In this document: positions 7,993 through 31,949 of the stretch, one piece after another
How the letters are laid out: the number at the start of each line of letters is the position of its first letter
Numbering within the stretch: position 1 is the first letter of the stretch
Source: a virus
DNA: 31,949 nt
Strand: one strand, 5' to 3'
IMG/VR virus record: IMGVR_UViG_3300043783_000061
Location: 1 to 31,949 of that record
Notes under the pieces: model-generated
What the model saw: the letters and a program-made list of their open reading frames with translations, nothing else
Databases searched by the model: none
What the model was told of the DNA's origin: nothing
Program-made: the position numbers and the translations under genes

Positions 7993-8028
7993 ATCACCTT
8001 ATTAGTCCCATACTGGCACCAAAGTCAA
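7993..8028 (-). promoter_or_regulatory. Candidate promoter with dyad operator
   Basis: On the minus strand, TTGACT (8028-8023) is followed after 17 bp by CTAATA (8005-8000), or after 18 bp by TAATAA. The spacer carries the dyad GGTGCCA-GTA-TGGGACT (8020-8004), nearly the same as dyads at 18860-18876 and 31108-31124. The predicted start is about 7993, three bases from the ATG at 7990. A repressor bound to the dyad would block polymerase. It lies just after the stop of the largest C-terminal internal-protein gene, so it would serve the left-hand gene block. Confidence 0.5.
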
Positions 8029-8031
8029 GCC

Positions 8032-9876
8032 CTACTGTTCGGGCGCCGCCGCTTCCGGTTGCTGGCTCTTCGTGATCAGGCCGCCGATCAGCGGCGCATA
8101 GTTCTCGGGCCGTGCTCCGCTCTGGATGGCGAAGGTGAGTTGCTGCCCGATCTTTGGATCCGCCCGCACCGCGTTCAGCACCCTCTGCACGGCAACTTCG
8201 CTCACTCTCCCCGCCATCGCGCCACCAGCCGCACCCAGAGCTCCGCCCACATGGCCCCCCGTCGACGCACCCACCGAATAACCCACCGCCGCACCCAGAT
8301 ACTCCGCCACATGATGCACCGCCTGGTTGAACCGCTGCCGCGCCGCATTCGTCTTCGTCGCGTTGGCAATCTCCTGCAGGTTCTCAAGGCCGCCCGGCCC
8401 CAGCGCCGCGCGCACGTTGGCCAGCCCGTTGCGCCGTACCACCTGCTTCAGCTTCGCGTCCAGCGCGCTGCCGTTGATGCCGCGGTAGGTCTGGCTCACG
8501 CCGGTGTCGCCGGGCAGTCCGCTGAGGCTCTGATCGAGCGACCTCCCGATGTCGGCCAGCGTGTAGCTCTGCCGCCAGCTTTGCTTCACCGCGTTCAGGA
8601 TCTCCGGATTCACTCCACCTGCCGAATCGAACACACTCTGCATCTTCGCCAGTGCGTTCTGATATGCCCGCTGCGCATCCTCTCCGCCGCCGCGCGCCGC
8701 TTCCTGGGCCGCTTTCACCTCATCATTCACCGCGCGGAACTTTCCACCGGTTACCTGATCGAGCCATGCATACGCGTTGCCGTTGGCTTCCTGCATCGCG
8801 TTCGCCACGCCCGTGAAGTCGTGCGTGCGGTTCAGCAGCGCAGCGACATCATGCGCGGGCATCACCGGCGCCTGGGTGGGTTCGGTGAAGTTCCCCGCCT
8901 CATCGATCCCCCACCCGATGCGCGGCGCTCCGCCCGCCGCGTTCATCGCCTCCAGCGCCGGTCTGCCTGCATTCTGCGCCGTCGTGGCGTACTTCGCCGC
9001 GCCTTGCTCTGCAGCCACCTCGCCTGCCGGCCTGCTGGTCAGCTTCGATGCGATCGGCGCCGCTGCGCCCGCCAATCCTTCAACCGCCGGCGATGCCACA
9101 CCGGCGAGCTCGCCCGCATTCGCCGCCGCACCCGCATCTCCGCCCGTATGCACGTACGTCTGCGCCGCCGTCAGTCCGGCATTCTGCGCCGCGTGCAACA
9201 CGGTGCGCGCGCCGATCGCCACTAGCTTCGCAATGCGCGGATTCCCTTCCAGCATCTTCGCCGTCTTCAGCTGCTGGGCCATGCGGTCCGCGTAGCTCAA
9301 TCCCTTGGCTGCTTCACCCGGCGCTTCCTCAAGGCCCAGCGGGCTGAACAACTCGCCCACCAGTTCACCTACGCCACCGAGATTCTGAAAGACGCCATGT
9401 TCTTCGCCGTTCTTCATCAGGTAATCGGCTGCGTCCTTCAGGTGCTGATTGCCCGCCGTCGATCGCTGCCCGCGGTATCCCTGCTCCACGGCCTGCGTCG
9501 CCTCGGCATCTCCGGCCTGCGGATGCTGTGTCTTGTAATCCAGCACATCGCTGGGGCTGCCGTCATTGCCCACATGGTCCGTGACGATCTTCAGCAGTCC
9601 GCCAACGCCGCCGATCGCGTTCTTGATCGCGCCGATGGTGAACTGCGGATACGCATCCGATGCCTGATCGAGCGCCTTCAGCACCGGATGGTTTGCCAGC
9701 ATCTCGTCATCCGGCGTCGCGCCGTTGTTCCAGTAGTTCTTCAGCCGCTCCAGCAGGCCCGGCGGCTTGGGCGGCGCAGTACTTGGCGGCGGATTCGCAG
9801 GCTTCAAACCAGCGGACAGATCTACGCTGCCACTCTGCTGAAGTCCGGCTGATAGGTCTATGGCTTGAGTGCCCAT
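8032..9876 (-). CDS. Internal virion (ejection) protein candidate, 614 aa
   Basis: The third of three consecutive Ala/Gly/Gln-rich proteins. The ATG at 9876 abuts the preceding TAA. Residues 1-40 contain a repeated SVDLSAGL/AIDLSAGL element and a Pro-rich linker. The centre is largely helical. Around residues 535-575 lies a Gly/Ala hydrophobic stretch (LGAAVGYSVGASTGGHVGG), typical of segments that could insert into a membrane. Podoviruses such as P22 and T7 carry three internal proteins that are ejected to form a conduit for DNA, and gene order and composition fit that role here. Family membership itself is not visible. Confidence 0.65.
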   Translation of the reverse strand: MGTQAIDLSAGLQQSGSVDLSAGLKPANPPPSTAPPKPPGLLERLKNYWNNGATPDDEMLANHPVLKALDQASDAYPQFTIGAIKNAIGGVGGLLKIVTDHVGNDGSPSDVLDYKTQHPQAGDAEATQAVEQGYRGQRSTAGNQHLKDAADYLMKNGEEHGVFQNLGGVGELVGELFSPLGLEEAPGEAAKGLSYADRMAQQLKTAKMLEGNPRIAKLVAIGARTVLHAAQNAGLTAAQTYVHTGGDAGAAANAGELAGVASPAVEGLAGAAAPIASKLTSRPAGEVAAEQGAAKYATTAQNAGRPALEAMNAAGGAPRIGWGIDEAGNFTEPTQAPVMPAHDVAALLNRTHDFTGVANAMQEANGNAYAWLDQVTGGKFRAVNDEVKAAQEAARGGGEDAQRAYQNALAKMQSVFDSAGGVNPEILNAVKQSWRQSYTLADIGRSLDQSLSGLPGDTGVSQTYRGINGSALDAKLKQVVRRNGLANVRAALGPGGLENLQEIANATKTNAARQRFNQAVHHVAEYLGAAVGYSVGASTGGHVGGALGAAGGAMAGRVSEVAVQRVLNAVRADPKIGQQLTFAIQSGARPENYAPLIGGLITKSQQPEAAAPEQ

Positions 9877-11772
9877 TTATTGCATCACCGGAATTCCGCG
9901 CCGCTTAGCCTCCGCGATCGCTGCGTTCACATCTTTGCCTGGATTCGCCGCAGCCCACGCGCTCGGACTGAACACCTGCTGCGGCTGCTGCTGCGTCGTA
10001 GGCTGATGCCACTGCTGCAGGTAGCGATTCGTTCCGATAACTTCGCTCTTGCGGTTGGCCAGCAAAGGCCGCAGCGTGTCCGTGGCTACGCTCTTGATCT
10101 GCTGCGCAGTGAAATTTTTATTCAGAATCTCCGCCGCCTGACGCAGTTTTGCATCACTCGTTCCACCGCCTCCGGCGCCGCCGCCCTGCAATACCTTGGC
10201 GATCTGATCATCGACTTCAACGAGCGCCGCACGGTACGCCGCCACTTGCGGGTTGCCTGCGCTCAACTTCGCCCACTGATCGACAGCGTTCAATGGTGGG
10301 AACTCAGTCCGAGGAAGTTTATCGCTCATCTGCACTAGAAGGCCCAGATTGCCGCTGTTGTTATCTCGCCCAGTCAACGAATTCAGATAGTTCAGTAGGG
10401 TGTACGTCGACGGATTTGTCGCAAACTTGTAGTCACCCATGGCCTTCGCGATGTCGAATGGGTGCCCGTACTTCGTCATGCTGTACTGATTCGCCGCCGC
10501 CAGCGTTGCGTCGTAGGTCTTTGAGCGCTTCGACAGGTTCGACGGATCTAAAGTTCCTTCGACCAACTGTTGCGCATTTTGATTCACTTCATCCTGTGAT
10601 TGTGCCTGATTGAGTTGCTTCGTCTCGGCATTCTCATGGGCCGCGGCGGCGTAATCGTGAGTCACTTCCGCCCGGTTCTTCGCGATGGTGCTAGGCACTT
10701 CAGCGGTTTCGGCGTTCGCCTTGTTCGTCTCCGCCTGCTTCTGCGCGATCTCCGCGGCCTTCGTGTCGTACTGCAACTTCTGCGTGTACGCCACGTTGTT
10801 GTAATCCATCTGCTCGCCCGCCGTCAGCGGCTCGGTCGAGTTGTGCTTCACAAATTTTCCCGTCGTCGCATCGAAGGTCAAAAACTCCGCACCGGGAGGC
10901 AGCACGCTGGTGCGGAAACTGTCCGGCATCTTCACCACTGCAAATCCCGCCTGCTTTCCATTTTGCACCTGCGGCACCAGCTCGATCTGGTGCTTCTGAA
11001 TCATGTCGGCCATTACGTCCGGATTGACTTTGAGGATATTGCGCAGATCTGCCGGCGTCTGCATCGTGCCCAGCACCGTGCCGCCGAAATCCTTCACCAG
11101 GTGCTCCACCTGGGCTTGCGCGAATTTTGTGTCTTCCTCATTCGCCTGCACCTGGAGGCGCGCGGCGTTGAAACTGTGCTCGGCCAGGTTCATCAGCAGC
11201 ATCTGGTGGTTCGCGTTGTCGAGATTCTGCTGCCGCGCCTCTGCCGTCATCTGCTGCTGCTGTTGCTGGCGCTGCTGGGTCTGCTGCTCGCCTACCTTCA
11301 GTCCGGCTGCTGCGGCAGCACCCGCATTGCGTCCGCGTCCCGCCGCAAATCCGGCGGCCGCGCCCTGCGCCAGGCTCGCTCCGATGCGGGCCCACTGCTC
11401 GCCGCGCCCCAGCACGCGCTGCTTCACGTACTCGTTGCCGTACTGATCCCTGCCCATCTCCGGAGTGGTGCGCCCCGTCAGCGCATCGGCCACGCTGTCG
11501 ATCACGCCCAGGATGCCCGGCCGCTTGTTCGACGTCACGACTGGAGGTTCAGCCGGCGGATTCGTCGCCGGAAAACTCACGTTGCTCGGCGCTGCCGGGA
11601 GCGCGCTTGAGGGCTGCTGCGCCGCCGGACTCGGGGATGGCGGCGTGCTCGGCGGAGTCGAAGCCGGTGCGCTCGCTGCGGGTGTCGCATCAGGTTGCGC
11701 CGCTGCATCCCATCCGTTCGCAGCCGCCGTCACTGTCTGCGCGGCCTGTGCTGGTGTCGTCGTTCCGCCCAT
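9877..11772 (-). CDS. Internal virion (ejection) protein candidate, 631 aa
   Basis: The N-terminal ~85 residues are Ala/Pro/Ser-rich and probably disordered. A Gly/Ala-rich hydrophobic segment follows near residues 130-160 (ASLAQGAAAGFAAGRGRNAG), then a poly-Gln tract (QQTQQRQQQQQQ) and a long helical, Gln/Asn/Ala-rich body. No lytic transglycosylase motif is visible. The ATG at 11772 has a good GAGGTGAG site. Together with its two neighbours it matches the large internal-protein cluster that podoviruses encode after their tail genes. It probably travels in the capsid and is ejected with the DNA. Confidence 0.65.
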   Translation of the reverse strand: MGGTTTPAQAAQTVTAAANGWDAAAQPDATPAASAPASTPPSTPPSPSPAAQQPSSALPAAPSNVSFPATNPPAEPPVVTSNKRPGILGVIDSVADALTGRTTPEMGRDQYGNEYVKQRVLGRGEQWARIGASLAQGAAAGFAAGRGRNAGAAAAAGLKVGEQQTQQRQQQQQQMTAEARQQNLDNANHQMLLMNLAEHSFNAARLQVQANEEDTKFAQAQVEHLVKDFGGTVLGTMQTPADLRNILKVNPDVMADMIQKHQIELVPQVQNGKQAGFAVVKMPDSFRTSVLPPGAEFLTFDATTGKFVKHNSTEPLTAGEQMDYNNVAYTQKLQYDTKAAEIAQKQAETNKANAETAEVPSTIAKNRAEVTHDYAAAAHENAETKQLNQAQSQDEVNQNAQQLVEGTLDPSNLSKRSKTYDATLAAANQYSMTKYGHPFDIAKAMGDYKFATNPSTYTLLNYLNSLTGRDNNSGNLGLLVQMSDKLPRTEFPPLNAVDQWAKLSAGNPQVAAYRAALVEVDDQIAKVLQGGGAGGGGTSDAKLRQAAEILNKNFTAQQIKSVATDTLRPLLANRKSEVIGTNRYLQQWHQPTTQQQPQQVFSPSAWAAANPGKDVNAAIAEAKRRGIPVMQ

Positions 11773-11783
11773 CTCTCACCTCT

Positions 11784-12398
11784 CTACGGTGTCTTGAATC
11801 CGCCGCTCGCCCATCCGCCGGCCGCAGTGCCTACCGCACCGATCGCCGCGTTGATCCAGCTGTCCTCTTCGCTCGCGATCTGGCTGGCTGTCGTTGACGC
11901 TGCGCTACCCGAACTGGTCTCGGCATTCTCAAAGCCCAGCGGATTCTCTCCGGCGGCGATGGTCTCCAGTCCGCCCGCCGCCTGTTGCCACTCGTTCAGG
12001 CCCTGCGTGTAGTCCGCCTGCTTGATCTGCGACTCTTCCTTGCTCTCTTCCTGGGCCGCCGACTGCGCCGTCTGCGATTGCACCTCGGCCTGCTGGCCGC
12101 TGGTCAGCGTCGTGCTTCCTCCGCCCTCGGTGGCCAGCTTCTCGCCGGTGGCGCGCGCCGCGGCTGAATAGTTCTCCGCCGTGCCTTCCACCGCCTGCGC
12201 GTTCAGATCATTCTCTTCAGCGGTAGTGAAGCCTTCCTGATTCGGTCCTTTGGCCAGGATCGCCTGAAACTGCTGCGCCATCGGACCATAGATCGCCTGC
12301 TGATCCGCATACTGTTCCTGCGTCATCTGCTGCGCGCTCTGGTAGGCGTCGATCTCTTCCTGCTGCAGCTGCAGTTGCTGGCTCGTAGGTCCACTCAT
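11784..12398 (-). CDS. Internal virion protein candidate, 204 aa
   Basis: A Gln/Glu/Ala-rich helical protein (SQQLQLQQEEIDAYQSAQQM...). It ends in a Gly/Ala amphipathic segment (WINAAIGAVGTAAGGWASGG). Size, composition and position upstream of two larger proteins of the same style resemble the smallest of the three ejection proteins in T7-like and P22-like phages. The ATG at 12398 follows AGGGAATCCT. Direct homology cannot be shown from the sequence. Confidence 0.6.
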   Translation of the reverse strand: MSGPTSQQLQLQQEEIDAYQSAQQMTQEQYADQQAIYGPMAQQFQAILAKGPNQEGFTTAEENDLNAQAVEGTAENYSAAARATGEKLATEGGGSTTLTSGQQAEVQSQTAQSAAQEESKEESQIKQADYTQGLNEWQQAAGGLETIAAGENPLGFENAETSSGSAASTTASQIASEEDSWINAAIGAVGTAAGGWASGGFKTP

Positions 12399-12406
12399 AG
12401 GATTCC

Positions 12407-13142: not shown

Positions 13143-13315
13143 GCCGAGTGCTCCTTCTCAAACACAACCCAATCAATCGCCGTCTTCACTCCTTCTATCG
13201 TGATGACATCGGAGTTGGGCGGCACGAACAGATCCGAGGGGATTTCCAGATCCGCAGTGAAGAGCACAGCCTTGGTGGCCGGGTCGGTGACTTCGATGTG
13301 GAGATTGCGATTCAT
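13139..13315 (-). CDS. Small beta-type protein, 58 aa, hypothetical
   Basis: Read directly from the sequence: ATG at 13315, TGA ending at 13139. The start overlaps the previous gene's TGA as ATGA, the end overlaps the next gene's ATG the same way, and GAAGGAAGG lies upstream. Translation begins MNRNLHIEVTDPATKAVLFT and continues with short strands and IPSDLFVPPNS, then a C-terminal Glu/Lys helix. The tight coupling on both sides is the main reason to accept it. No family is recognised. Confidence 0.6.
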   Translation of the reverse strand: MNRNLHIEVTDPATKAVLFTADLEIPSDLFVPPNSDVITIEGVKTAIDWVVFEKEHSA

Positions 13316-15444: not shown

Positions 15445-18372
15445 CTACTTCGCGGGCGCGGCCTCTTCGCTGCGCTCGTCGTGCACGCTTGCGTAAATTC
15501 CCCAGTCCAGCAACGCATCGCCCACCGTCTGCTCGCCGTAATCGAACTTCACCAGAATGCAGTCGCTGGTGTACGCCTCATTGTTCTGCGCCAGAGCATA
15601 GCGGTGGCTGAAGACGCTCAGGCTCTCAGGCGTATCGGGCGGATCGTTCGACGTCACATCCAGCGCGTTCCACGGCCGCTCGGGCGGCATCGGCACGATC
15701 TCGCCCATCAGCGTGCTTACAACCGGAGGATTGCCCACAGCCAGGCTCTTCGCCGCGATGTGCGCGAGCTCCGCCCACTGCCCTGAAGAGCACAGCAGCG
15801 TCACGCCTTTTGCATCCCAGCTCGGATATGCCTGGTACTCCTCGCTGTAGCCCACCGGGTCGTTGTAGCTCTCCCCCGTGGGATCTCTCATCCAGATGAT
15901 TCCGTTGTTCGAGTTGCCCAGCAGCAGGCGATGCATGCCCGGCGCGATCTCGATCGACTGCACCGCGCTGGTGCCGTTGGCAATCACGCGCCGCGGGCTC
16001 CACAGCAACCCGCTTTCCGGCGGCTGAATCATCGACATCCGGAACCAGCCCACGGCCCCATCGGCAACATACAAACCCGTATCCATCGAATTCGCCATGC
16101 ACCAGCTCACGAACGCCGTCGCCGGGTTGTAGAGCGCGCCCAGTGCCCCGTAACCGTTCCCTGTCGTCACCTTCACAAACTGGTCGCCGATCGGGAATCC
16201 CACCTCGGAGTACCCCGTCTGCGGATTGAACGGATATTGCACAGCCACCTGGCTCACCTTGCCGTTCGACTCCATCAGGTATGCCGCATTGTTGTACATC
16301 GAAACCGCGTTATATCCGGTGATGTGCACGCTGCCGAAGTAGCGCCACGCCTGAAAGGGATTGCCGCTCGTCCCATCGCCCAGGATGATCCACATTCCAT
16401 CGCCGTTGGTGAAGACGAGGATCCCGCCGTTCTCCACCGTCACCGGTTCCAGGCGAATCGGCTGCGCGACGAACGGGATGAAATTCAGCGGTGGAAACGC
16501 CGTAGTGCCATTGCCCGTAATCGTGTCAGGGCCTCCGCTCCACACCACCGTGTTGTTCAGGATGGCAAAGACGCGCTGCAGATGAAACACTGGCGCAGTC
16601 GTACTCGGCAGCGGTGGATCGTTCGAATCCGCCACCGGTGCCGGAATCAGCGCATTCAGCGCGCCTCCGCCGGCGATCGAAGTGTCCGGCACGCCCACAT
16701 CGAAATAAACGAAGTCTCCCATCGTCGCGAGATCCGCGGGGAACTGATCTTCGAGAATCAGCGTGGACTCATTCTGGGCTGTGCGCCATATCCAGATCTG
16801 ATCGATCTGCTTGTCTGTCGGATCGAACGACCCCAGCATCTCCACGTAACCCGTGATCAGCGCATTGCTGAGCGGGTTGGCCGCGCCGATGATGCCGCCG
16901 AAGATCGTGAACAGCGCCGAGGCCGTCGAAACGCTGCCATCGACCGCATGCGTCGAGTACGCATAGCTCACGGTGCCCGTGGTGTACACACTGCCCGGCC
17001 CCAGGCACGTCCAGGTCACGCTGCCATCGATTGTCGTCGTGCCCACGGTGCTCGCCCAGGACGGCGCCGTCCCGCCCGCCGCGCCTCCGGTGGTGCATCC
17101 CTGCAGGTTCCCGTTCGAATCGAGAATCACAGCCTGATACGCCACATAGGTCGCGCCCGCCGCCCACACTGCAATCTGCCCGAAGTTATTCCAGACCACG
17201 GTTCCGTCATTCGTCTGGCCGACTGGCGGAACACCCGGCGACGTGGCAAAGGTGGGGTAGATGCGCCCCGTCGTCCCGGCCGTCACCACCGCTTCAATGT
17301 TCCCCGCCAGATCGATGATGCTGTACCACGCCGTCAGCGCGGTCTGCGGCATCCACCAGCGCGAGCGCGCGGGATGCCCGCCGGTGCCGGGCGGCGGAAA
17401 AACATTTGGAGCGCCCACCGGCGTCGCCAGCCCAAGGTTTTCCACCGCCGACCCATAACATTTCCACTGCTGCCCCGCATCCGCCGTGATGCCGAACTGG
17501 GTTGTGGAAAACGTGGGCGCTGTCGCTCCCGTCGTTCCATTGCCCGTCGTACCCGTGCCGCCGTTCTCCGCCGTATAGGGGTAAGCCGTATGCGAGACAT
17601 TCACTTCGAGAATGCCCAGCGTCGTCGAAATGATCGCCGCGACCGGATGCGACGTCGCGTTGAGATAGCTCGCCGCGCCCAACCCCGCGAACGTCATCGT
17701 GACGCCCACCAGGTTCGTGAAGTTCAGCGGGATCTGCTGCGGATCGACGTAGAGGAACGTCGCCGATCCGTTCGATTGCGACGCGATGATGGGCACCGTG
17801 ATCCCGCCCAGCGCCATCTGCAGCACGCCCGGCTCCGCGCCCACGCTGATCAGCGTTCCCGGCGCCACGGCGGTGCTCGCCGTCCACGGCCCTGGCGTCA
17901 GCCATTTGCGCGGCTTGTTGCCGTCGTACACCTGCAACCGCGTGGTGAGGCCCAGGAAGCGTGCCGGCGCTGTGTCTGACGCCTTGCTCATCAGCACGCT
18001 GCTCTGGCCCGCCGTGGCGTCATAGATGTTGCCGTCGTTCCCATCCAGCAGCACGCGGATCGTCTGCTGGCTGTTCAGGATTTGCTTGTAGCTGTAGAAG
18101 CTGAGCGCGGGCGGAAAGGGTATCGAGTTGTACGGGATATGCCCTGGCGATCGCACGTCGGTGAGCGATTGGCTGATCTCGCGGTTCACACCATCGAGGA
18201 TCGAATCGAAGCGGCTGCCGCCATAGAACTTCGCCACCAGGAAGGGCACGGCCGCATCGCGGTACGGGCTGCGCTGCGTCCAGAGTCCCGTGAAATCGCG
18301 GGCGTTCTGTGTCAGCGTCGCGTAGCGCGATGGGTTCTTGACGGCACCCGCGGCTTCGATCACTCCTGGCAT
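15445..18372 (-). CDS. Tail nozzle/stabilisation-like protein, 975 aa
   Basis: A very large beta-rich protein following two adaptor-like genes, the place where podoviruses encode the tail nozzle (T7 gp12, P22 gp10). Residues 25-75 carry an orderly motif (FTGLWTQRSPYRDAAVPFLV, then FYGGSRFDSILDGVNREISQ). Repeated strand-rich blocks consistent with a propeller-like body follow. Residues ~448-458 (DGSVTWTCLGPG) match a module also present in the adaptor gene at 19641, and a weaker copy lies near residue 300 (DAGQQWKCYG). The ATG abuts the preceding TAA and follows GAGGCGGAA. The nozzle role is inferred from size, position and style. Confidence 0.65.
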   Translation of the reverse strand: MPGVIEAAGAVKNPSRYATLTQNARDFTGLWTQRSPYRDAAVPFLVAKFYGGSRFDSILDGVNREISQSLTDVRSPGHIPYNSIPFPPALSFYSYKQILNSQQTIRVLLDGNDGNIYDATAGQSSVLMSKASDTAPARFLGLTTRLQVYDGNKPRKWLTPGPWTASTAVAPGTLISVGAEPGVLQMALGGITVPIIASQSNGSATFLYVDPQQIPLNFTNLVGVTMTFAGLGAASYLNATSHPVAAIISTTLGILEVNVSHTAYPYTAENGGTGTTGNGTTGATAPTFSTTQFGITADAGQQWKCYGSAVENLGLATPVGAPNVFPPPGTGGHPARSRWWMPQTALTAWYSIIDLAGNIEAVVTAGTTGRIYPTFATSPGVPPVGQTNDGTVVWNNFGQIAVWAAGATYVAYQAVILDSNGNLQGCTTGGAAGGTAPSWASTVGTTTIDGSVTWTCLGPGSVYTTGTVSYAYSTHAVDGSVSTASALFTIFGGIIGAANPLSNALITGYVEMLGSFDPTDKQIDQIWIWRTAQNESTLILEDQFPADLATMGDFVYFDVGVPDTSIAGGGALNALIPAPVADSNDPPLPSTTAPVFHLQRVFAILNNTVVWSGGPDTITGNGTTAFPPLNFIPFVAQPIRLEPVTVENGGILVFTNGDGMWIILGDGTSGNPFQAWRYFGSVHITGYNAVSMYNNAAYLMESNGKVSQVAVQYPFNPQTGYSEVGFPIGDQFVKVTTGNGYGALGALYNPATAFVSWCMANSMDTGLYVADGAVGWFRMSMIQPPESGLLWSPRRVIANGTSAVQSIEIAPGMHRLLLGNSNNGIIWMRDPTGESYNDPVGYSEEYQAYPSWDAKGVTLLCSSGQWAELAHIAAKSLAVGNPPVVSTLMGEIVPMPPERPWNALDVTSNDPPDTPESLSVFSHRYALAQNNEAYTSDCILVKFDYGEQTVGDALLDWGIYASVHDERSEEAAPAK
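17005..17029 (-). repeat. Duplicated WTC module, copy in nozzle-like gene
   Basis: This 25-bp stretch matches 20013-20037 at 22 of 25 positions by my count. Both encode DGSVTWTC in the same frame, in two different tail genes. This points to duplication or gene conversion of a small surface module. Confidence 0.6.
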
Positions 18373-18519
18373 TTACTTCCGCCTCGCCTTTTTCTTATTG
18401 CTCTTGCCCGCTTTGCTGAGGGCGATGGCGACGGCCTGCTTCTGCGGTTTGCCCGCATTTATTTCCGTGCGGATGTTTTTGCTGACGGTTTTGCGGCTGC
18501 TGCCCTTCTGTAACGGCAT
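18373..18519 (-). CDS. Small basic phage protein, 48 aa
   Basis: Read directly from the sequence: ATG at 18519 behind GAGGTGAG, TAA abutting the nozzle-like gene's ATG. Translation begins [20 protein letters not shown] and continues [20 protein letters not shown], ending in a poly-Lys/Arg tail. This is a familiar pattern of short basic proteins common in phages and bacteria (MPLxKGxS....N...E...[11 protein letters not shown]), of unknown function, which I recognise by motif. The strong charge suggests nucleic-acid binding. Confidence 0.75.
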
Positions 18520-18529
18520 TCGGCTCACC

Positions 18530-18859
18530 TCAATAGTTGGGATTTCTCTCCGCTTCCAATTTCTTGATCAGTCGCAACGCACGGTTGAGATCGCCGAAGT
18601 ATATCTGCTCTCGTGCTTCCCGGAGAATTTTGTCGATCCGATCGCTCTCGCGCTTTGAGCGAATTCGCAAGCCGCGCTCATAACGGCTTATCACAGTTCG
18701 GGCCGCCCTTACCTTCGGTGGCTCACTCTCGCTAATCGGGCGTCCGATCGTCCAGCGTCTCGGGAGACGGTCAAGCAGATATTTCTGCTGAGGATTCAAC
18801 TTTGATCGTGGCGTCTCGATCAGTGGCTTCTTCGCGGCACTGACTGACTTTGGGTTCAT
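18530..18859 (-). CDS. Hypothetical basic protein, 109 aa, possibly from a leaderless transcript
   Basis: I start at the ATG at 18859 ([20 protein letters not shown]). The longer frame to 18964 overlaps the adaptor gene and looks unlike protein. The product is rich in Arg, Lys and Glu and largely helical ([36 protein letters not shown]). There is no ribosome site because the ATG coincides with the start predicted for the promoter at 18866-18894. It may be a phage-encoded regulator or a nucleic-acid-binding protein. No family is recognised. Confidence 0.6.
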
Positions 18860-18894
18860 GGTCCCACTATGGCACCACTTGATCTGAGTGTCAA
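18859..18894 (-). promoter_or_regulatory. Candidate promoter overlapping dyad operator
   Basis: On the minus strand a consensus TTGACA (18894-18889) is followed after exactly 17 bp by CATAGT (18871-18866), a 4/6 match to the -10 element. Transcription would start near 18859, the A of the next ATG. The dyad GGTGCCA-TAG-TGGGACC (18876-18860) covers the -10 and reaches the start codon. It therefore looks like an operator that shuts the promoter when bound. Confidence 0.55.
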
Positions 18895-18896
18895 GC

Positions 18897-19610
18897 CTAA
18901 ACCGCTCGCCCCTGCCCTCCGGTCTGTCCAGCCATCTGGCTGCGGGTGGCCGTCCGACCAACATTCAGGAATCCCTCGAGGAACATATTCCTGGCCTGCT
19001 CATCCAGGCCATCCTGTGTTGCCAGCAGGCCATAGGCAAAGTCGCGCTGCCACAGTGGAAAGCGGCTGTCGTTCACCAGTAGCCCAGCCTCGGCCAGAAA
19101 GCCTTTCAGAAAAAGGTAAGCGAACTCATCCGGCACCGGTCCGAACGTCTGTCCGTAGCTCGAGATCAGCGGCGCCTTCTGCTGGTAGTCGAAGTTCGCC
19201 GTGTAGTCCTGGTCCGGAATGGAGTTGAACCGGAACACCAGGTCCCCGAGATTATCGTCGTACACCGGCGCCACGTGTGTCGGCCGGCGAATACTGCTCA
19301 CCACCGCCAGCGCCTGCGCCCCGTTCAGTTCGTAGATATTCGCCGCCTCGGTCGCATCCACCAGCCACTGCTTCTCGATCCGGCCCAGCAGCGGCAGCGT
19401 CTGCGTGTAGTCCGTTCCTCCGCCTTCGGTGATGGCGATCGAGAAGGTCGCCCGGTTGAACCTCCAGATGAACGGCGAGCCCAGCATGCGCTGCAGCACA
19501 ATGTTACCCATACCCAGGCCGGGCTGCAGATTGTTCACGTCCAGGCGCTGATTCTTGATCAGCGTGGAGCAGAAGGTAACCGCATCCTGAACTGTGAGAC
19601 TCGATGCCAA
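18897..19610 (-). CDS. Head-tail adaptor-like protein 2, 237 aa
   Basis: The TTG start at 19610 is supported by AGGAG six bases upstream; the product starts MASSLTVQDAVTF when TTG is read as Met. It shares an outline with the preceding 326-residue protein: an N-terminal helix, a WRFNRAT segment (WKWNRAT in the other), then a beta region and a late PVPDEFAYLFLKGFLAEAGL (PIPDSFSRHFYRGLASECL in the other). This makes the pair paralogues. In podoviruses such pairs sit between portal/coat and nozzle and form the neck. The specific equivalence to known adaptors is inferred. Confidence 0.6.
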   Translation of the reverse strand: MASSLTVQDAVTFCSTLIKNQRLDVNNLQPGLGMGNIVLQRMLGSPFIWRFNRATFSIAITEGGGTDYTQTLPLLGRIEKQWLVDATEAANIYELNGAQALAVVSSIRRPTHVAPVYDDNLGDLVFRFNSIPDQDYTANFDYQQKAPLISSYGQTFGPVPDEFAYLFLKGFLAEAGLLVNDSRFPLWQRDFAYGLLATQDGLDEQARNMFLEGFLNVGRTATRSQMAGQTGGQGRAV

Positions 19611-24864: not shown

Positions 24865-27086
24865 TGCAGCCCTCCCGTCAGCAGCTGGGTATCGGTGTTC
24901 CGCGTCAGCCGTGCTTCAGCCAGCTCCAGCGGCGTCGGACCCTCCGCGCGGTTCTGAGCCGGGCCGCTTTCGCCCCCGCCCTCCGTCGCGGCCTTCGCTG
25001 CCGCGCGCACCACTTCCGTCTGCGCGGCCTGGTGGCCCTGCTCCTGAATCTCCTGAATCTTGTTCTGGCCTTTCAGTTTTTCGATCACCGCCGCCTGCTG
25101 CGTCTTGGCCATCGTCGGATTCATCTGCTGCACCAGCTGCAACTGCTGCGGCGTCAGCGGCACGATGATGTCCTGGCGTCCCTGCAGTTCGCTCATCTGC
25201 ATAAACAGATCCTCGATCGCCGCGAAGTTGATCGTCTGCCCCTTCTGGTGCATGTACTCGAGCAGTTGCGGCTGCTGCACCAGCTGCAGCAGGAACGGGA
25301 TCAGTTGCAGGATGTTCGCCTTCGCCTGCAGCTTCTGACCGGCCAGCACCTTGATCTCGAATTCCATATCGAGAAACGCTTCCGCGTCGATCGTCTCGAA
25401 GATCGCATCGCCGAACTTGCGGCTGAGAATTTCGCGAATCTCGCGGATCGGCATCTTCTCGCAAATCATCTCCCACTTGAACCGATTCCACCGGATGATC
25501 ACGTTCTCCAGGTGCTCGATCGGGTCGCTGATATTCTCGTCGGCTTTGCCGCCCACGCGATTCACGCCCGCCGCGGTGCGCATTGCGCTCGAGCCCGGTC
25601 CGCCCAGGTTGCCCTGCATCGTGGTCGAGTTCGCTCCGACGAGGTCCTCGCCGCCGTCCTTGCCCAGCTGGTAAATCTTCCACGCCTCGGGCGGCACTTC
25701 CGGCATTTTCATAAAGCCGAACGCCTTATTTACATCGCCGTCTTTGGTGTTCACCCCCCAGAAGGTCCCCATGCCCAGGATCACGTTCTGCGTGGGCTGG
25801 TTCCCCATTGACGAGTCATACAGAATCGGCGCATTCATCGGAAACGCGATCATCTTCAGCACTTCGTTCAGCACGCCCTGGTCCATGCGCTGATCGCCGG
25901 CGTTCAGGCGTCCGATGCCCATCCCGTAGCCCGAGTTATCGATGTTCCACCAGTTCGCCGCATATCCCAGCGCGTGGTCGCCGATCTTGTGCTCTTCGTT
26001 GCGAATGCACTTTTTGCGCCCGTTATAGCTGAGGAACTCAATGACGCGATCCCCCGTCCAGTACGCCACCTTCATCAGCGGCTTCTCGAATGGATTCTCG
26101 CTGATGTTCTTCTGCTCTCCGCCGGCGTGCAGCACCACGCTCGACTGCGTGTTCATCGCCTGCGCCACCTGGCTCGCCGGTTCCGCATCGCCGAACGGAT
26201 TCGCGAGGAAGAACTTTTTCAGTTCCTCATCGTCGGGAATGTCCTTGTAGCAGGTCAGGCCGCGCATCTGCTGCAGGTCCTGGAAGTTCACATAATCGAC
26301 GTCGACGCGAAACGTCGCGCTCATATCTGGCCGGTTTGGCGTGTTCCACTTCTCATCCCAGAAGGTTGTGCCCAGGCGGCGATATTCGAAGTACGGCCAG
26401 CTTTCTGTGACCGTGTCTTCGATCGTCTTCCACTCGTCGCTCTCCCACGTATCGACCTTTACCGGCTCGCCCGCGGGCATCGGGATCTCAGGCGGCGGTT
26501 TCTTCGGTACGCGCCGCCGCTTGATGACCTTCCGCTCTTCCCACCCTGGAATCGCGATGCCTGTGCCCTGCAGCGTCTGGCACTCGATCAGCAGCGTCAT
26601 GTTGTATTCGAAGTCCGCGCGATCGTCCAGCACGCTCAGCAGCTCGGTGGCCGCGTCGATGTACGTCTGCGCATTCTGCTGCGATGCCAGTTTGCCGCGC
26701 GGCTCCAGCACAAATGGAACTTCCTGCGCGAAGATGCCTCGGCGCACCTGGTTCGACATCGTCTGCGCATTCTTCGCCACGTTGAACCGCGAGATCCGCG
26801 CCGGCCGATTGGTCTGCATCCTCCAGTCGCGATCGTAATTCGGGCTCTGCTTCAGGTAGTCGATGTACTGCCACTCGGCCAGCCAGCTGTTCGTCTCGAG
26901 CCACGCCTGGGCCTGGCGAAAATCCATCCAAGCCACAGTGACCGCAGCATTGTCATCCAGCGCTGGCTCGCTTGTCCCGCCCGGCGCGATCGTCACCTGC
27001 TCCGCCTGAATCAGCGGCGTGAGCTCATTGCCGATGGGCATCCCATCGCCCGCCGGCTTCGCTGCGATCTCGAGTGTGTCAGCCAT
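24861..27086 (-). CDS. Portal protein, P22-size, 741 aa
   Basis: Located 15 bp after the terminase gene. The length is close to the ~725 residues of the P22 portal. An early helical region (AWLETNSWLAEWQYIDYLKQ, then MQTNRPARISRFNVAKNAQT) leads into a mixed core (YFEYRRLGTTFWDEKWNTPN, GYAANWWNIDNSGYGMGIGR, MIAFPMNAPILYDSS). From about residue 600 it becomes a Gln-rich helical tail (PFLLQLVQQPQLLEYMHQKG), reminiscent of the portal barrel that projects into the capsid. The ring would thread DNA during packaging by the terminase encoded upstream. No catalytic motif is expected. Confidence 0.75.
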   Translation of the reverse strand: MADTLEIAAKPAGDGMPIGNELTPLIQAEQVTIAPGGTSEPALDDNAAVTVAWMDFRQAQAWLETNSWLAEWQYIDYLKQSPNYDRDWRMQTNRPARISRFNVAKNAQTMSNQVRRGIFAQEVPFVLEPRGKLASQQNAQTYIDAATELLSVLDDRADFEYNMTLLIECQTLQGTGIAIPGWEERKVIKRRRVPKKPPPEIPMPAGEPVKVDTWESDEWKTIEDTVTESWPYFEYRRLGTTFWDEKWNTPNRPDMSATFRVDVDYVNFQDLQQMRGLTCYKDIPDDEELKKFFLANPFGDAEPASQVAQAMNTQSSVVLHAGGEQKNISENPFEKPLMKVAYWTGDRVIEFLSYNGRKKCIRNEEHKIGDHALGYAANWWNIDNSGYGMGIGRLNAGDQRMDQGVLNEVLKMIAFPMNAPILYDSSMGNQPTQNVILGMGTFWGVNTKDGDVNKAFGFMKMPEVPPEAWKIYQLGKDGGEDLVGANSTTMQGNLGGPGSSAMRTAAGVNRVGGKADENISDPIEHLENVIIRWNRFKWEMICEKMPIREIREILSRKFGDAIFETIDAEAFLDMEFEIKVLAGQKLQAKANILQLIPFLLQLVQQPQLLEYMHQKGQTINFAAIEDLFMQMSELQGRQDIIVPLTPQQLQLVQQMNPTMAKTQQAAVIEKLKGQNKIQEIQEQGHQAAQTEVVRAAAKAATEGGGESGPAQNRAEGPTPLELAEARLTRNTDTQLLTGGLQ

Positions 27087-27101
27087 GTTCCACCGAATCT
27101 A

Positions 27102-28802: not shown

Positions 28803-29047
28803 GAATGGGGGCCTTTCGGAATTCCGATTACTCGCCAGATGTCGATCTTTACGCCTTTTCGCGGACTCTCCAATCGACTTGGAATCCTCGGCACACCGTT
28901 CTGACTTTCATCTCCTAATCGGCCCCCGGTGCTGCCGTCGTTTGTGGTATCTCGCTCTGCCGCCGAAGGCTGAACGGGTGATGATGTGGGGTTCTTCGAC
29001 CCTTTGCTCCCCGGCGGCAAACTTCTAGACGTTCGGCGCGGCCTCAT
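28799..29047 (-). CDS. Possible small basic protein, 82 aa
   Basis: The frame overlaps the previous gene by 23 bp and ends with a TGA that overlaps the terminase ATG (ATGA), the coupling seen elsewhere in the window. The product is basic and Pro/Ser-rich (RPRRTSRSLPPGSKGSKNPT). It ends with a more ordered segment (VKIDIWRVIGIPKG). A second short frame (MKVRTVCRGFQVDWRVREKA, behind TTAGGAG) competes for the same bases. Coding is uncertain. Confidence 0.35.
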   Translation of the reverse strand: MRPRRTSRSLPPGSKGSKNPTSSPVQPSAAERDTTNDGSTGGRLGDESQNGVPRIPSRLESPRKGVKIDIWRVIGIPKGPHS

Positions 29048-29357
29048 CGCCGCCTACAGCACCACCAGGCTGCTGGCCGGGCTGCGACGCCACTTCCTGC
29101 GCACCCTGATCCGGCTCCTGTTCGTTCATGCCGAACTGCTCTTCGACGTGCTGCCCGGCCTCGCCCGCATCCTGGCTGGTGGCTACGTTCTCGCGCTCCG
29201 GCTCGGTGTGATGGTCCTCACGCTTCGCCTTGTACGTATGGTGATGCACCACCGTTCCATCCTCGGCCTGCACGCTGCGAATCTGGTGAAGGTGCTTCTT
29301 GGGCGCCTTCTTTTCCTCGCCCTTCCCGCCTTCGTGCTTGCGCTCTTCCTTGGCCAT
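29025..29357 (-). CDS. Small charged His/Glu/Gln-rich protein, 110 aa
   Basis: ATG at 29357 follows GAGGGTGTAGGCG. Composition is highly polar: a Lys/Glu start (MAKEERKHEGGKGEEKKAPK), a His-rich centre (HLHQIRSVQAEDGTVVHHHT), then an acidic/Gln region and a Gly-rich end. It is likely disordered. It sits just upstream of the terminase and could be a packaging accessory; there is no DNA-binding helix-turn-helix to support a small-terminase call. The 116 bp between this gene and the preceding one hold only weak hairpins. Confidence 0.55.
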   Translation of the reverse strand: MAKEERKHEGGKGEEKKAPKKHLHQIRSVQAEDGTVVHHHTYKAKREDHHTEPERENVATSQDAGEAGQHVEEQFGMNEQEPDQGAQEVASQPGQQPGGAVGGDEAAPNV

Positions 29358-29473
29358 CGCCTACACCCTCGCACAAACTCTGAGAACCATATCTAAACTT
29401 TATGGCCATCCGGCCTGCCCGCTCACCCCTTACAGGCGTTTATTGCGAGCAGGGCGCGGCGGCCATCCCTGTT

Positions 29474-30091
29474 CTAACCGCAGCTGAACTTCTGCACGTT
29501 CACCGTCGTCGGCGTTCCGCTGGCCGCCCCGCTCGAGGTTGCGCTGAGCGTGAAGCTGGGCAGCTTGGCCACCGTGGGCGGGTTGGCGCTGGGGTTGCCG
29601 GCGTTGAGGAACCCGGTAAGGAAGTTCGACAGCGTTACAGCCGCAACCAGCGTCTTGTTCACATAGAACTCGATCTTGCCGGCCAGCACGCCGCTCACCG
29701 AATCGAAGATCCCCTCCATGTGAATCCAGAACGCTGCCGTCGCCGAAGCCTGCGCGATCGCGCCGCTCGATCCCATGAGGTTGCCCGAGACCACAGAATC
29801 CGACGTCCCCTCGTACAGCTTCAGCGTGATGTTGCCGCTGGCGGTCGTCTTCACGTAACCGCTCGCCCACACGTCGAAAGGCGTCTGCTCGATCGCTGTG
29901 TCTGGCGCCAGTTGGATCGAAAGCGGAATCGTGGAGACTTCGGTCGACGGGATGATCGTCTCATTCGTTCCCGTCAGGACAAGGGTTGCCGGCAACGGCC
30001 CGGGAGATCCGGCCTGGGTATTCATTGGGATCTGATTCGGTACATTGGCCGATCCGCTGACTACGGAATTCGGGCGATCACTCAGAGCCAT
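29474..30091 (-). CDS. Beta-rich virion protein candidate, 205 aa
   Basis: ATG 30091 has CAGGAGAAGACG, almost the same initiation block as the coat and Ig-like genes, suggesting high translation. The protein is Ser/Thr/Ala-rich with alternating strands (FDVWASGYVKTTASGNITLK, AAFWIHMEGIFDSVSG, GKIEFYVNKTLVAAVTLSNF), as in capsid decoration or fibre domains. It overlaps the zinc-finger gene by 14 bp. Position before terminase is unusual for a decoration protein. No family is recognised. Confidence 0.6.
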   Translation of the reverse strand: MALSDRPNSVVSGSANVPNQIPMNTQAGSPGPLPATLVLTGTNETIIPSTEVSTIPLSIQLAPDTAIEQTPFDVWASGYVKTTASGNITLKLYEGTSDSVVSGNLMGSSGAIAQASATAAFWIHMEGIFDSVSGVLAGKIEFYVNKTLVAAVTLSNFLTGFLNAGNPSANPPTVAKLPSFTLSATSSGAASGTPTTVNVQKFSCG

Positions 30092-30620
30092 CGTCTTCTC
30101 CTGGGGTGCTCACAGCACTCGCCGCAAGTTTACCCCTTTCGGCGTTACCGTCAACAAGATTTTGAATTTCCCCATCATGCCGGTTGTTCGCGATGTTCTT
30201 CAGCGCGAGAATTTGACCCGCAAACGTCGAATCAAATGGCACTCCAGCACCGCACGTCAGAGTTTCTGAAAGGTCGATCGCCTCGCGCAGCGCTTCCTCG
30301 AGCTCCTGCACGCGCCGCTTCGGCTTGCGCCCTGGAGGGTTCACGCCCACATCGCCGCGGTGCCGCCTCCAGGCTTTGAACTCTTCGCGCTGTTCAGGCG
30401 TGCACGGATGTTGGCAGGTAGGGCATTTGAAGGCCGCACGCCGCTCCTTCTGAAACGCCTTCAGGACCGCCCGACACTCCTTCGAACACGTCCATGCCGC
30501 CCGCGACGTCGCCCGTGCCTTTGGCAATTCTGCGGTGCACACCACGCACTTCGGTTCCCAATGCGAAGCCGTTGGAATCGTTGCGCCGATTTCTTGCGCC
30601 ATCGTCTGCACGTCGCTCAT
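30078..30620 (-). CDS. Zinc-finger protein, 180 aa
   Basis: Two cysteine clusters are visible: C25-x2-C28 with C45-x3-C49 (KCVVCTA ... WTCSKEC), and C66-x2-C69-x3-C73 (KCPTCQHPC). The first is a probable zinc finger. A basic segment (PPGRKPKRRVQELEEAL) leads into a helix, and the C-terminus is polar. The ATG overlaps the nuclease gene's TGA (ATGA). It may bind DNA as a late regulator or act as the missing small terminase subunit. Neither is demonstrated. Confidence 0.6.
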   Translation of the reverse strand: MSDVQTMAQEIGATIPTASHWEPKCVVCTAELPKARATSRAAWTCSKECRAVLKAFQKERRAAFKCPTCQHPCTPEQREEFKAWRRHRGDVGVNPPGRKPKRRVQELEEALREAIDLSETLTCGAGVPFDSTFAGQILALKNIANNRHDGEIQNLVDGNAERGKLAASAVSTPGEDDGSE

Positions 30621-31093
30621 GGGCGGAACTCCTCAAACTTCCAGCCCTCGCTGCGATTCCATGTCACCGCGAGAAATTTAAACTCTGGAAACATCGTCGC
30701 GGCCACCTTGATCTTCACGCGCGCGTCGTCCTCCCAGTGGCCCTTCACCTCGTGCAGCTCGATCAGTCCGGTGTTCAAAACGACCTCAAAATCGATGTTG
30801 AAAAACGTGCTCGGTGCCAGCTTCAGCCGGAACGGCTCGAACTTCCACGCCGCGATGTCGCCGGATAAGCGAAATCCCTCGAGAAACGCCGCGTAGAGCG
30901 CCTCGCGTTTATTCATACGCCCTGATGCGTGCTGCTGCCGTCCGCCACGCGGTCGAATAGGTTCTCGCGAAGGAAGGGGTGCATCTAGGAAGGTATTTCC
31001 CAAACCTACTGCCGACGGACGGGTGCGCCGAAACATCTCAGGCACCTGTGCGGCTCCCACGTCTCTCCAATTTGTGCTTGGCGGTTCGTTCAC
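30617..31093 (-). CDS. PD-(D/E)XK nuclease, DUF1064-like
   Basis: The core starts near residue 60 (MNKREALYAAFLEGFRLSGD), then WKFEPFRLKLAPSTFFNIDF with Asp-101 and IELHEVKGHWEDDARVKIKV with Glu-115 and Lys-117. This is the D...ExK signature with the EVKG-x-W-EDDARVKIK pattern of DUF1064-type phage nucleases, which are related to Holliday-junction resolvases. It probably resolves branched DNA before packaging. The GTG start at 31093 gives 158 residues. An internal ATG at 30916 (residue 60) is an alternative that would leave a 200-bp control region. If GTG is used, the start lies within bases of the divergent promoter region. Confidence 0.75.
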   Translation of the reverse strand: MNEPPSTNWRDVGAAQVPEMFRRTRPSAVGLGNTFLDAPLPSREPIRPRGGRQQHASGRMNKREALYAAFLEGFRLSGDIAAWKFEPFRLKLAPSTFFNIDFEVVLNTGLIELHEVKGHWEDDARVKIKVAATMFPEFKFLAVTWNRSEGWKFEEFRP

Positions 31094-31094
31094 G

Positions 31095-31124
31095 ATAGTG
31101 CTAGTATAGTCCCACTATGGCATC
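31095..31124. promoter_or_regulatory. Divergent promoter/operator between nuclease and ribbon-helix-helix genes
   Basis: The dyad AGTCCCA-CTA-TGGCATC (31108-31124) overlaps the plus-strand ATG at 31117. TATAGT (31105-31110) faces right and TATACT (31108-31103) faces left. Starts predicted from these are near 31117 and 31096, at or close to the two start codons. A second inverted pair, ATAGTG/CACTAT (31095-31100, 31113-31118), overlaps it. No good -35 boxes are visible, so an activator or an extended -10 (TGCTAGTAT) may be used. Confidence 0.5.
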
Positions 31125-31302
31125 ACACGCCACAAAAAAATCATCGCAGCGAGCGGAAAAAGTTGGCCTCAAGCTGCGGTTTCAGGACGCCGAGCATCAG
31201 GAGCTCGTGAAGGAAGCCTGGCAGAAATCGAAACTGCCTTCGCTCAACGCGTGGCTGGTGCAGGCAACACTACACCAGGCCCGCCTCCAGCTCGGCCGCT
31301 AG
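31117..31302 (+). CDS. Small ribbon-helix-helix-like regulator, 61 aa
   Basis: After a basic N-terminus (ASHATKKSSQRAEK), the product reads VGLKLRFQDAEHQELVKEAW, a strand plus helix, then PSLNAWLVQATLHQARLQLG, a second helix. This strand-helix-helix order and size fit Arc/CopG-type DNA-binding dimers. Its ATG lies inside the dyad operator, so self-regulation is a natural idea, and the same dyad recurs at other promoters. It converges on the winged-helix gene, and both stop within one CTAG. No ribosome site is present. The family call is by pattern only. Confidence 0.55.
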   Translation: MASHATKKSSQRAEKVGLKLRFQDAEHQELVKEAWQKSKLPSLNAWLVQATLHQARLQLGR

Positions 31303-31685
31303 ATCGGCTGATTGCGCTCCGCCAGGTCAATCAGCACGTAATCGTTTGGCATTTGCCTTCGTCTTCCCCTGAGAGTTTTATATCGCTCCCGCACGATGAT
31401 CGCTCGTTTGCGCGTCAGTTCCTTCAGTCCGCGCCGGATTGAGTTTTCTGAAGTTCCGACGATTTCAGCCAATTGCCTGATTCCTACGCCCGTGCAGTCG
31501 CTGCTGGCAGCCGCGTAGTAGGCCAATGCCAGGTAGGTCAGGATTGCGTTGGACGAAGGTTTTGTGGTGGCAAGTAGGGTCCGGTGGATCCACAGGAACG
31601 GCAGTGTGCGGATGTCCCGCACTTGAATTCTCTCGTCGCGCAAAGGGGTTGGATCCTCTCGGTTCAGAGAGCCATACGAAATCAT
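31299..31685 (-). CDS. Winged helix-turn-helix protein (replication or regulatory)
   Basis: I start at the ATG at 31685 behind GGACGG, giving 128 residues (MISYGSLNREDPTPLRDERI). The frame is open to 31784, but that part covers DnaA-like boxes and does not look like protein. The core is a clear winged helix: SSNAILTYLALAYYAA, then GIRQLAEIVGTSENSIRRGL with a recognition helix, KELTRKRAIIVRERYK, and a wing (RRRQMPNDYVLIDL). Such domains occur in phage replication-organiser proteins and regulators. Lying next to an origin-like region favours replication, but the protein has no additional domain. Confidence 0.65.
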   Translation of the reverse strand: MISYGSLNREDPTPLRDERIQVRDIRTLPFLWIHRTLLATTKPSSNAILTYLALAYYAAASSDCTGVGIRQLAEIVGTSENSIRRGLKELTRKRAIIVRERYKTLRGRRRQMPNDYVLIDLAERNQPI

Positions 31686-31724
31686 TTGCCGTCCGTGCGC
31701 AAGTTGCCAATTAGGCACCGCACT

Positions 31725-31783
31725 TGTGGATAAGCTGTGTAAATGTGCACAATTCTGTGGGTAAGTCTGGGCGGTTGTGCACA
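31725..31783. other. Candidate replication origin: cluster of DnaA-box-like sites
   Basis: Four 9-mers fit the DnaA box. The minus strand has TTATCCACA (31733-31725, perfect consensus), TTGTGCACA (31752-31744) and TTACCCACA (31764-31756). The plus strand has TTGTGCACA (31775-31783). The second and fourth also form a 10-bp inverted pair (ATGTGCACAA/TTGTGCACAT). The adjacent 31785-31907 stretch is AT-richer and pyrimidine-biased, with a CAACGGT/ACCGTTG inverted pair (31831-31837, 31880-31886) and no gene. Confidence 0.5.
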
Positions 31784-31907
31784 TCGGGTGGAAAGCACGC
31801 CTAGGAGCGGCTCGTAAGTGTGTTTCTTTGCAACGGTCTTCTCTTTCCTTTCCCTTTACGAGTTTATATGTGTATCTAAACCGTTGAATCTTCTAAACAT
31901 CCCAGAC

Positions 31908-31949
31908 GGGTGGGTGCCATATTGGCAGGGGGGGTGGGTGCTATATGGC
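31908..31949 (+). repeat. Iteron-like direct repeats at right edge
   Basis: GGGTGGGTGCCATATTGGC (31908-31926) is followed 24 bp later by GGGTGGGTGCTATATGGC (31932-31949), which runs to the window edge, so the array may continue. The first copy contains the dyad GGTGCCA-TAT-TGGCAGG, related to the promoter dyads. The G-runs could also form a quadruplex. Confidence 0.55.

Follow-up and report, generated by a model that had tools for sequence, protein, structure and literature searches.

The window analysed here is a complete IMG/VR virus record (IMGVR_UViG_3300043783_000061, 31,949 bases (b), class 'linear'), which encodes near its right end a 61-amino-acid (aa) Arc-like ribbon-helix-helix (RHH) protein (31117-31302, + strand), the start codon of whose gene lies within a sequence that recurs at two further promoter-like places of the same genome. 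This arrangement is read here, with fair probability, as that of an Arc-like RHH autorepressor with dispersed operators at accessory promoters. The 61-aa protein would repress its own near-leaderless promoter via the site covering the -10 region and the start codon (site 3), and would also bind the matching sites 2 and 1, each of which covers the promoter of an inserted accessory gene. When phage DNA arrives in a cell lacking the RHH protein, the three promoters would become active together, served by host sigma-70 RNA polymerase, and with the accumulation of the RHH protein the three promoters would be shut off, so that accessory proteins are made in a short early pulse. The RHH protein is the natural candidate and the likely binder because the shared sequence stands at the start of its own gene. 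Since the sites lie over the -10, the spacer or the start, binding is likely to repress through exclusion of RNA polymerase, while the early pulse of accessory proteins is plausible by analogy.

The three sites (8020-8004, 18876-18860 and 31124-31108) are present exactly as listed by an earlier sequence-only reading of this DNA, all on the - strand and in one orientation, and they share the extended consensus T[AG]GTCCCA-NNN-TGGCA[CT]CA at 8003-8021, 18859-18877 and 31107-31125. Predicted operator site 1 (TAGTCCCATACTGGCACCA, 8003-8021) is located in the spacer of the promoter-like TTGACT-N18-TAATAA on the - strand, in front of the gene 7610-7990 (- strand), which encodes a 126-aa protein with a hydrophobic N-terminus. 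Predicted operator site 2 (TGGTCCCACTATGGCACCA, 18859-18877) covers the -10 of TTGACA-N17-CATAGT-6 nt-ATG, again on the - strand, which precedes the accessory gene 18530-18859. Predicted operator site 3 (TAGTCCCACTATGGCATCA, 31107-31125) spans both the -10 region and the start codon of the rightward RHH gene; the leftward gene 30617-31093, for which the site is also upstream, starts at a GTG about 14 b away. Promoter hexamers were judged by eye against the sigma-70 consensus. Exact TGCCANNNTGGGAC occurs three times in reverse and never in forward orientation in the record, with none for the backward control, and the three sites are its only copies. All three are found in non-coding DNA or at gene starts, in a genome whose genes nearly all point leftward and whose non-coding share is 6.1% of window 1007-31949 according to the gene calls of this analysis.

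Recurrence at upstream regions exceeds what shuffling produces. Among 36 merged upstream regions (2,177 b), this is the only triple of regions sharing a two-arm word around a 3-b gap, and any such triple arose in 1, 2 and 0 of 200 sets of shuffled upstream regions under three settings; a stricter fourth setting (arms of 7, one mismatch) returned no triple in either the real upstream regions or the shuffles. The overlap of these sites with promoter-like elements or start codons, as originally proposed, is borne out. The accompanying description of the sites as near-palindromes holds less well than their recurrence, because the dyads are imperfect (of arms of 8, the matches are 6, 7 and 5 for sites 1, 2 and 3) and because 60 of 300 shuffles equal the best dyad found at the window's RHH start, a point which weighs against an operator there. 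The arms are nevertheless inverted and not direct. Within the window alone recurrence is good evidence and the palindromic form is not. A scan of the whole genome, suggested together with the sites, gives a divided answer, as the exact motif is confined to the three places while the loose form TGCCANNNTGGSAY with up to 2 mismatches is at chance level window-wide (30 matches versus 33.6 expected), which also counts against a dedicated operator set.

The same three copies at promoter-like places could be taken for a promoter element, such as the site of an alternative sigma factor or of a phage polymerase, instead of an operator. Ordinary -35 and -10 hexamers stand beside the sites, and the position of the shared sequence varies: site 1 occupies the spacer, site 2 covers the -10, and site 3 extends from the -10 to the start in the opposite orientation. 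As the registers to the -35 and -10 differ and the orientation at site 3 is opposite to transcription, the shared sequence does not behave as a copied promoter or sigma element. Together with the genome-specific nature of the sequence described below, this makes a promoter element decidedly unlikely, even though a -10-like hexamer is found 6 b ahead of the ATG at most RHH starts and palindromes are unclear at many of them.

Evidence of a different kind comes from relatives, which were collected by terminase as 25 loci and 28 further close ones by profile (L074-L101), giving 53 IMG/VR records. The window sequence is not conserved in these 53 relatives, and the arrangement is. The exact window motif TGCCANNNTGGSA is present in only 9 of the 53 (6 of 25 and 3 of 28), and in all nine the copy lies elsewhere than at the RHH start or the site-2 promoter region. 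As the sequence varies from genome to genome, the exact motif was rejected as a test in relatives. Loss of the dyads in related genomes had been named beforehand as damaging to the operator proposal; the window sequence is indeed lost, but another shared sequence takes its place. When the RHH-start sequence of each genome is used as a query against that same genome, a second copy is found, in several genomes at one shared place, immediately to the left of the gene homologous to window gene 18897-19610, a place which corresponds to window site 2.

This joint change was tested without hand-picked operators in the 14 genomes that have both an RHH start and sequence at the site-2 place. In an own-versus-other permutation the resulting p values were 2e-5, 1e-5, 0 and 0 of 100,000 for word lengths of 13, 15, 17 and 19. 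Restriction to the 10 genomes with promoter space, after dropping G052 and G025 (next gene immediate) as well as G041 and G043 (only a short gene-free stretch), gave p 1e-5 and then 0 of 100,000. In a genome-wide search with 17-b words from the RHH start, the best match outside that start includes the site-2 place of about 95 b in 9 of these 10 genomes, and it is the unique best match in seven, namely the window, G014, G045, G050, G031, G028 and G026. Searching in reverse from site 2 leads back to the RHH start in 8 of 10, uniquely so in the window, G014, G045 and G026, and does not return it in G049 and G012. Control queries treated with the same tie rule reached the site-2 place in 0 of 80 cases when taken from gene starts and in 1 of 200 when taken as random 36-mers. 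The simplest reading of these patterns is that a single factor would recognise the two places of each genome and would have changed in specificity from one genome to another. The earlier proposal of dispersed sites for a single factor thereby gains from the relatives, since RHH start and second copy vary in concert, and the most suitable candidate binder is the 61-aa RHH-like protein.

Several observations weigh against so regular a picture. The top match in G037 is tied with two other places; site 2 of G049 is weak (13/17), has several ties, is at chance level and is not reciprocal; and G012 is without a full site at place 2 (best 12/17). Reverse matches are tied in G037, G050, G031 (with its own third copy) and G028. 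When all 20 genomes are compared with shuffles, the top non-self match beats all 30 shuffles in only 4 (the window, G014, G037 and G031). Furthermore, no counterpart of site 1 was seen at the matching place in relatives, and the 126-aa protein encoded downstream of it has no homologue in the first 25 relatives. In G041 (3762) and G043 (6868), the start of the homologue of the 19641 gene resembles the own RHH start (TATTCT-ACCACC-ATG), at a level close to chance (6 and 4 of 30 shuffles as good). Unguided counts of dyad pairs showed an excess in most genomes over one shuffle each and are too unspecific for a verdict.

Two further explanations are affected by the joint change. Chance resemblance within the window could draw on the motif with 2 mismatches being no commoner than in shuffles, but it is rendered extremely improbable by the shuffles of upstream regions and by the independent pattern in relatives. 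Phages are known to borrow host regulators, and a host factor might bind the sites; the concerted change within genomes, however, involves the start of a phage gene that is itself DNA-binding-like, and such a host factor is considered very improbable.

RHH start regions are genome-specific, and their symmetry varies from clear to absent. Clear palindromes are ATACGGTAT-g-ATACCGTAT (L074), CCGGTAT-c-ATACCGG (L085), GTGCTAT-a-ATAGCAC (L076), GCCATAGTG-N9-CACTATGGC (L096) and CATAGT-acc-ACTATG (L023). For an RHH operator the overall count is unfavourable, given that a palindrome beyond 95% of 300 shuffles is found at only 5 of 20 RHH starts (G020, G049, G037, G028 and G026); G031 (L079, TAGTGGTAT-t-ATACCGCTA) narrowly misses this threshold with 17 of 300 shuffles, and 14 other starts fail. 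More uniform is the -10-like hexamer, which by reading ends exactly 6 b before the ATG at 16 of 20 RHH starts, with distances of 7 b in L074, 9 in L085, 10 in L100 and 14 in L021. Because this hexamer sits so close to the ATG in most starts, most RHH transcripts may be leaderless or nearly so.

The RHH gene was found by a profile search, using a profile built from the window protein and six relatives, in 21 of 54 sequences (53 loci and the window), of which 20 are distinct as L096 equals L097 there; the match in L074 is weak (E 0.0097). It is rightward in 20 of the 21, and the winged-helix gene that adjoins it in the window is also present in 17 of 21. With the RHH protein alone as query, 10 pattern stretches contained no relative in viral_contigs, and no match was obtained in annotated phages. 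Assignment to the Arc-like RHH superfamily is probable and is based on several individually modest results. A 19-member profile searched against PDB sequences placed Arc first (E 0.0023) among 13 sequences with E up to 1, with NikA and other Arc entries lower down. Members match the Pfam families TacA1, NikA, HicB and ParD weakly (best E 0.0008-0.009, none significant singly), with weak member matches in Pfam to RHH families and none to helix-turn-helix (HTH) families, and the window protein itself matches no Pfam family. In NCBIfam the matches to YlcI/YnfO, MobA and RicR are weak and below cut-off. The AlphaFold2 (AF2) model from 19 members has a mean pLDDT of 80.3 with helices at 25-38 and 43-59 and no assigned strand, residues 1-20, which are the expected strand stretch, being of low confidence (55-64) in a single chain whose pairing needs a dimer. 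Fold matches are all to RHH chains (Foldseek best E 5.8, VIA Z 4.2-4.5, none significant singly), and as the VIA comparison covered only 4 chains, the lack of a non-RHH match there means little. A caution against the assignment is that TLE1, a non-RHH chain, comes close behind Arc in the profile search (E 0.008).

Residues expected on the DNA-facing strand, whose register follows that of Arc, correlate with the similarity of start sequences (Mantel r 0.34, p 0.0016, partial p 0.035). The partial test is weak, the helices correlate equally well (r 0.40, p 0.0008), the strand correlation is confounded by relatedness, and with two near-duplicates dropped it falls to p 0.029 (partial p 0.065). R-E-R strands (G006, G031, G033 and G013) accompany GGTA...TACC, and R-D-R strands are split, with GGTA...TACC in G037 and without it in G050.

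The right edge of the window contains a second set of repeated sequences that had been joined to the promoter sites in the sequence-only reading, which listed five shared near-palindromes. The three promoter sites stand, and the right-edge pair (31913-31929 and 31937-31949) is real sequence of a different element. It consists of two GGGTGGGTGC(C/T)ATAT(T)GGC repeats (31905-31949, + strand), iteron-like, cut by the contig end and part of a putative origin. Between these and the winged-helix gene lies TGTGGATAA (31725-31733, + strand), which we take to be a DnaA-box-like word, and similar words are present there in several relatives. The winged-helix gene (31299-31685, - strand) encodes a probable replication protein with weak matches to HTH_36, a DnaD-like loader and O-like initiators; a winged-helix profile found 5 loci, one of them on a contig outside the first terminase list. 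Two to five copies of such repeats are found near the same end in 15 relatives, with a sequence that differs between genome groups although the layout is kept, for example GGGGTGGGTGCTGTGAGCACCC in G014 and ACCGCTGAAACGGT followed by C-runs in G023. By eye, several relatives have DnaA-box-like words, then repeats and then an AT-rich stretch, with the winged-helix gene adjoining. Origin-like right ends were seen in G001, G003, G004, G006-G010, G012-G014, G020, G021, G023 and G025, and in the window at 31720-31949. The origin repeats adjoin G- or C-runs, and several of the AT-rich stretches hold TAGTAGTAG-like trinucleotides recalling DnaA-trios.

Plasmid Rep proteins bind iterons and also an inverted repeat in their own promoter. 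By the same logic the winged-helix replication protein could be the binder, of the origin repeats and, in partial form, of the promoters. The origin repeat of the window, GGTGCCATATTGGCA, resembles the operators with a best match of 12/15, and a related weak dyad, GGTGCCT-AAT-TGGCAAC (31703-31719, - strand), whose membership in the set is uncertain, stands just upstream of the winged-helix gene, about 20 b before its likely ATG (31685). In G012, too, the winged-helix gene is preceded by a dyad, TGCCA-ACAC-TGGCA. The relatives speak otherwise, as the repeat of a genome is no more like its own RHH start than the starts of others (p 0.45, 0.17 and 0.38 for three word lengths in 11 genomes including the window), and scans with the own repeat in 15 relatives located the copies at the right end, apart from single weak matches in G013, G014 and G010. 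Iterons as operators were rejected on these two grounds, the own-repeat scan and the absent coupling to RHH starts. The same uncoupling removes the proposed link between promoter sites and right-edge repeats, which are better regarded as iteron-like repeats of a putative origin, separate from the operator set. The likeness of 12/15 in the window is probably coincidence, though unexplained, and binding of the promoters by the winged-helix protein is judged unlikely. The dyad at 31719-31703 (- strand) is missing from the list of the sequence-only reading. In both the window (31703-31719) and G012 (about 41073-41090) a TGCCA...TGGCA-like dyad lies upstream of the winged-helix gene, while their RHH starts differ.

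The accessory cassette of the window sits between the tail genes 18897-19610 and 15445-18372. Its first gene (18530-18859, - strand) encodes a 109-aa protein without a convincing family match in a family scan and without a homologue in the first 25 relatives, and the second (18373-18528, - strand) a 51-aa basic protein with 74% identity over 42 residues to a stretch in G022. In all, 43 of the 53 relatives were compared at this place. Where no clear RHH gene is present and both ends of interest are covered, the flanking tail genes are 0-17 b apart in 15 of 16 contigs, the exception being G011, whereas RHH-bearing contigs, window included, have more than 100 b between them, usually with genes, in 13 of 16. 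G034 and G047 were counted as without a clear RHH gene despite a weakly RHH-like protein (E 0.041 and 0.0042), and 8 contigs without a tail gene as well as G002, G020, G044 and G053 (needed end missing) were left out. This contrast in spacing is not a test, because the two groups also differ by descent.

Inserted genes at the site-2 place differ between genomes. In G037 the insert encodes an Acb2/Tad1 hairpin protein (PF24729; score 39.3 bits, cut-off 27), a family described as anti-CBASS sponges, and G053 has a near-identical protein, the G037 copy being the one scanned. The homologue in G037, which is leftward at 26240 (L130), is the first gene of a tail-region cassette, as is that in G053. 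No convincing match was obtained for the other site-2 genes scanned. Further copies of own RHH-start sequences were found at 1968 in G031 and at 3783 in G037, each in the spacer of promoter-like sequence, the latter before a gene that is RecF/SbcC-like by eye, and at 29411 in G012, where GGTGCTA-gaa-TAGCACC stands beside TTGACA before a virion-like gene with 7 of 30 shuffles as good. Given these further copies, the regulon may extend beyond accessory genes. A RecF/SbcC-like ATPase gene, also by eye, is present in the left arm of G037 (3783), G014 (2066-3400) and G012 (2311-3633).

Some relatives have other small genes in comparable positions. In G011 (17795-18010) and at the right end of G015, both without an RHH gene, another small rightward basic protein is encoded (MAKKHLDK... 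in G011), whose gene has promoter-like sequence near its start and which is perhaps a different regulator. In G034 (38626-38886) and G047 (38288-38539) the weakly RHH-like protein is encoded near the right end with other promoter-like sequence. A rightward gene near the left contig end of G014 (449-1234) has by eye an ArdC-type antirestriction look.

As to the phage itself, which is from soil, PHROGs matches of falling strength identify a terminase, a major head protein and a portal-like protein among its genes. Several relatives are 40-43 kb long, and comparison of homologue positions with these longer relatives places the right end of the window near theirs, with roughly 5-12 kb absent at its left. 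The nearest annotated phage is Tunturi_3, distant by its portal (26.8% over 80%) and terminase (22.9% over 73%). Tunturi_3 is described as a phage of Tunturiibacter (Acidobacteriota) (PMC11924767). An acidobacterial host for the window phage is only a guess because this likeness is so distant. Inspection by eye of the left arms of three relatives (G012, G014 and G031, no family scan being involved) revealed no integrase, and no terminase relative was confirmed in genome_contigs among 17 pattern stretches in one scan; a lysogenic role for the regulator is on these two grounds not supported.

More tentatively, and with rather less confidence than doubt, the arrangement may amount to a plug-in form of counter-defence control, in which accessory genes are kept only on acquiring the private RHH operator of the resident phage, so that each lineage would possess a regulon written in its private code. 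The RHH-start sequence might then serve as bait for unknown anti-defence genes in uncultivated soil phages, and the protein-operator pairs might constitute an Arc-like specificity code. If true, scattered co-controlled genes would be readable from a single raw phage genome, and candidates for counter-defence without homologues could be found through the RHH-start sequence, one site-2 gene being already an Acb2/Tad1 homologue. About 20 natural regulators with different starts, ten of them with a second site place, would make an Arc-like recognition code testable by cross-binding.

A literature search at the level of titles and abstracts, with most subscription journals outside its coverage, returned no phage RHH protein with dispersed operators at accessory promoters. 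Arc and Mnt of P22 are phage regulators with the RHH fold and a symmetric operator, and to our knowledge their operators are not known to be spread to accessory-gene promoters. In Cluster A mycobacteriophages dispersed sites and repressors diverge together. The stoperators of these phages, to which the sites had originally been likened through phage L5, would resemble them in that the sites of one phage protein are spread over the genome (PMC9283540, PMC6550527). As described there, stoperators are numerous and asymmetric and also stop elongation. The sites of the window are few, three in the 31.9 kb examined, and are located at promoters or starts and not in numbers genome-wide, so that the likeness is weak. 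In archaeal viruses a shared upstream sequence is described as marking anti-defence genes through a strong promoter consensus (PMC11065993), whereas the shared sequence here is a genome-specific putative operator.

The proposed arrangement is comparable to that of two kinds of autorepressors. Aca repressors, according to PMC9410906, are mobile-element autorepressors with a site inside the core promoter and control over a counter-defence gene; they are HTH proteins typically encoded in the acr operon, unlike the RHH-like protein, whose gene lies about 12 kb from the putatively controlled site-2 gene in the window. Reg, an RHH protein of plasmid p576, is reported to repress the promoter of its own gene together with three others, which limits the expression of establishment genes to a short time after entry (PMC8708921). 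The present case would share with Reg the type of small RHH repressor, sites at its own and other promoters and, by analogy, the entry-pulse model, and at the level of sequence a putative operator at the own promoter, as in Reg, is recognisable in that the RHH-start sequence recurs at another promoter in 9 of 10 genomes. This second copy stands at accessory-gene promoters in those 9 of 10, one of them at chance level, and one such gene is the Acb2/Tad1 homologue. Reg operators are reported to consist of two heptamers in direct order (TTATCCCnnTTATCCC) adjoining strong promoters or the -35, in contrast to the phage sites, which lie over the -10, spacer or start, have inverted arms and belong to a phage and not to a plasmid. 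The system is not Aca, as fold and operon differ, is not a stoperator system by the number of its sites, and is not of the p576 Reg operator type with its direct repeats; by analogy its mode of action would be that of an Aca or Reg autorepressor acting on two or more targets.

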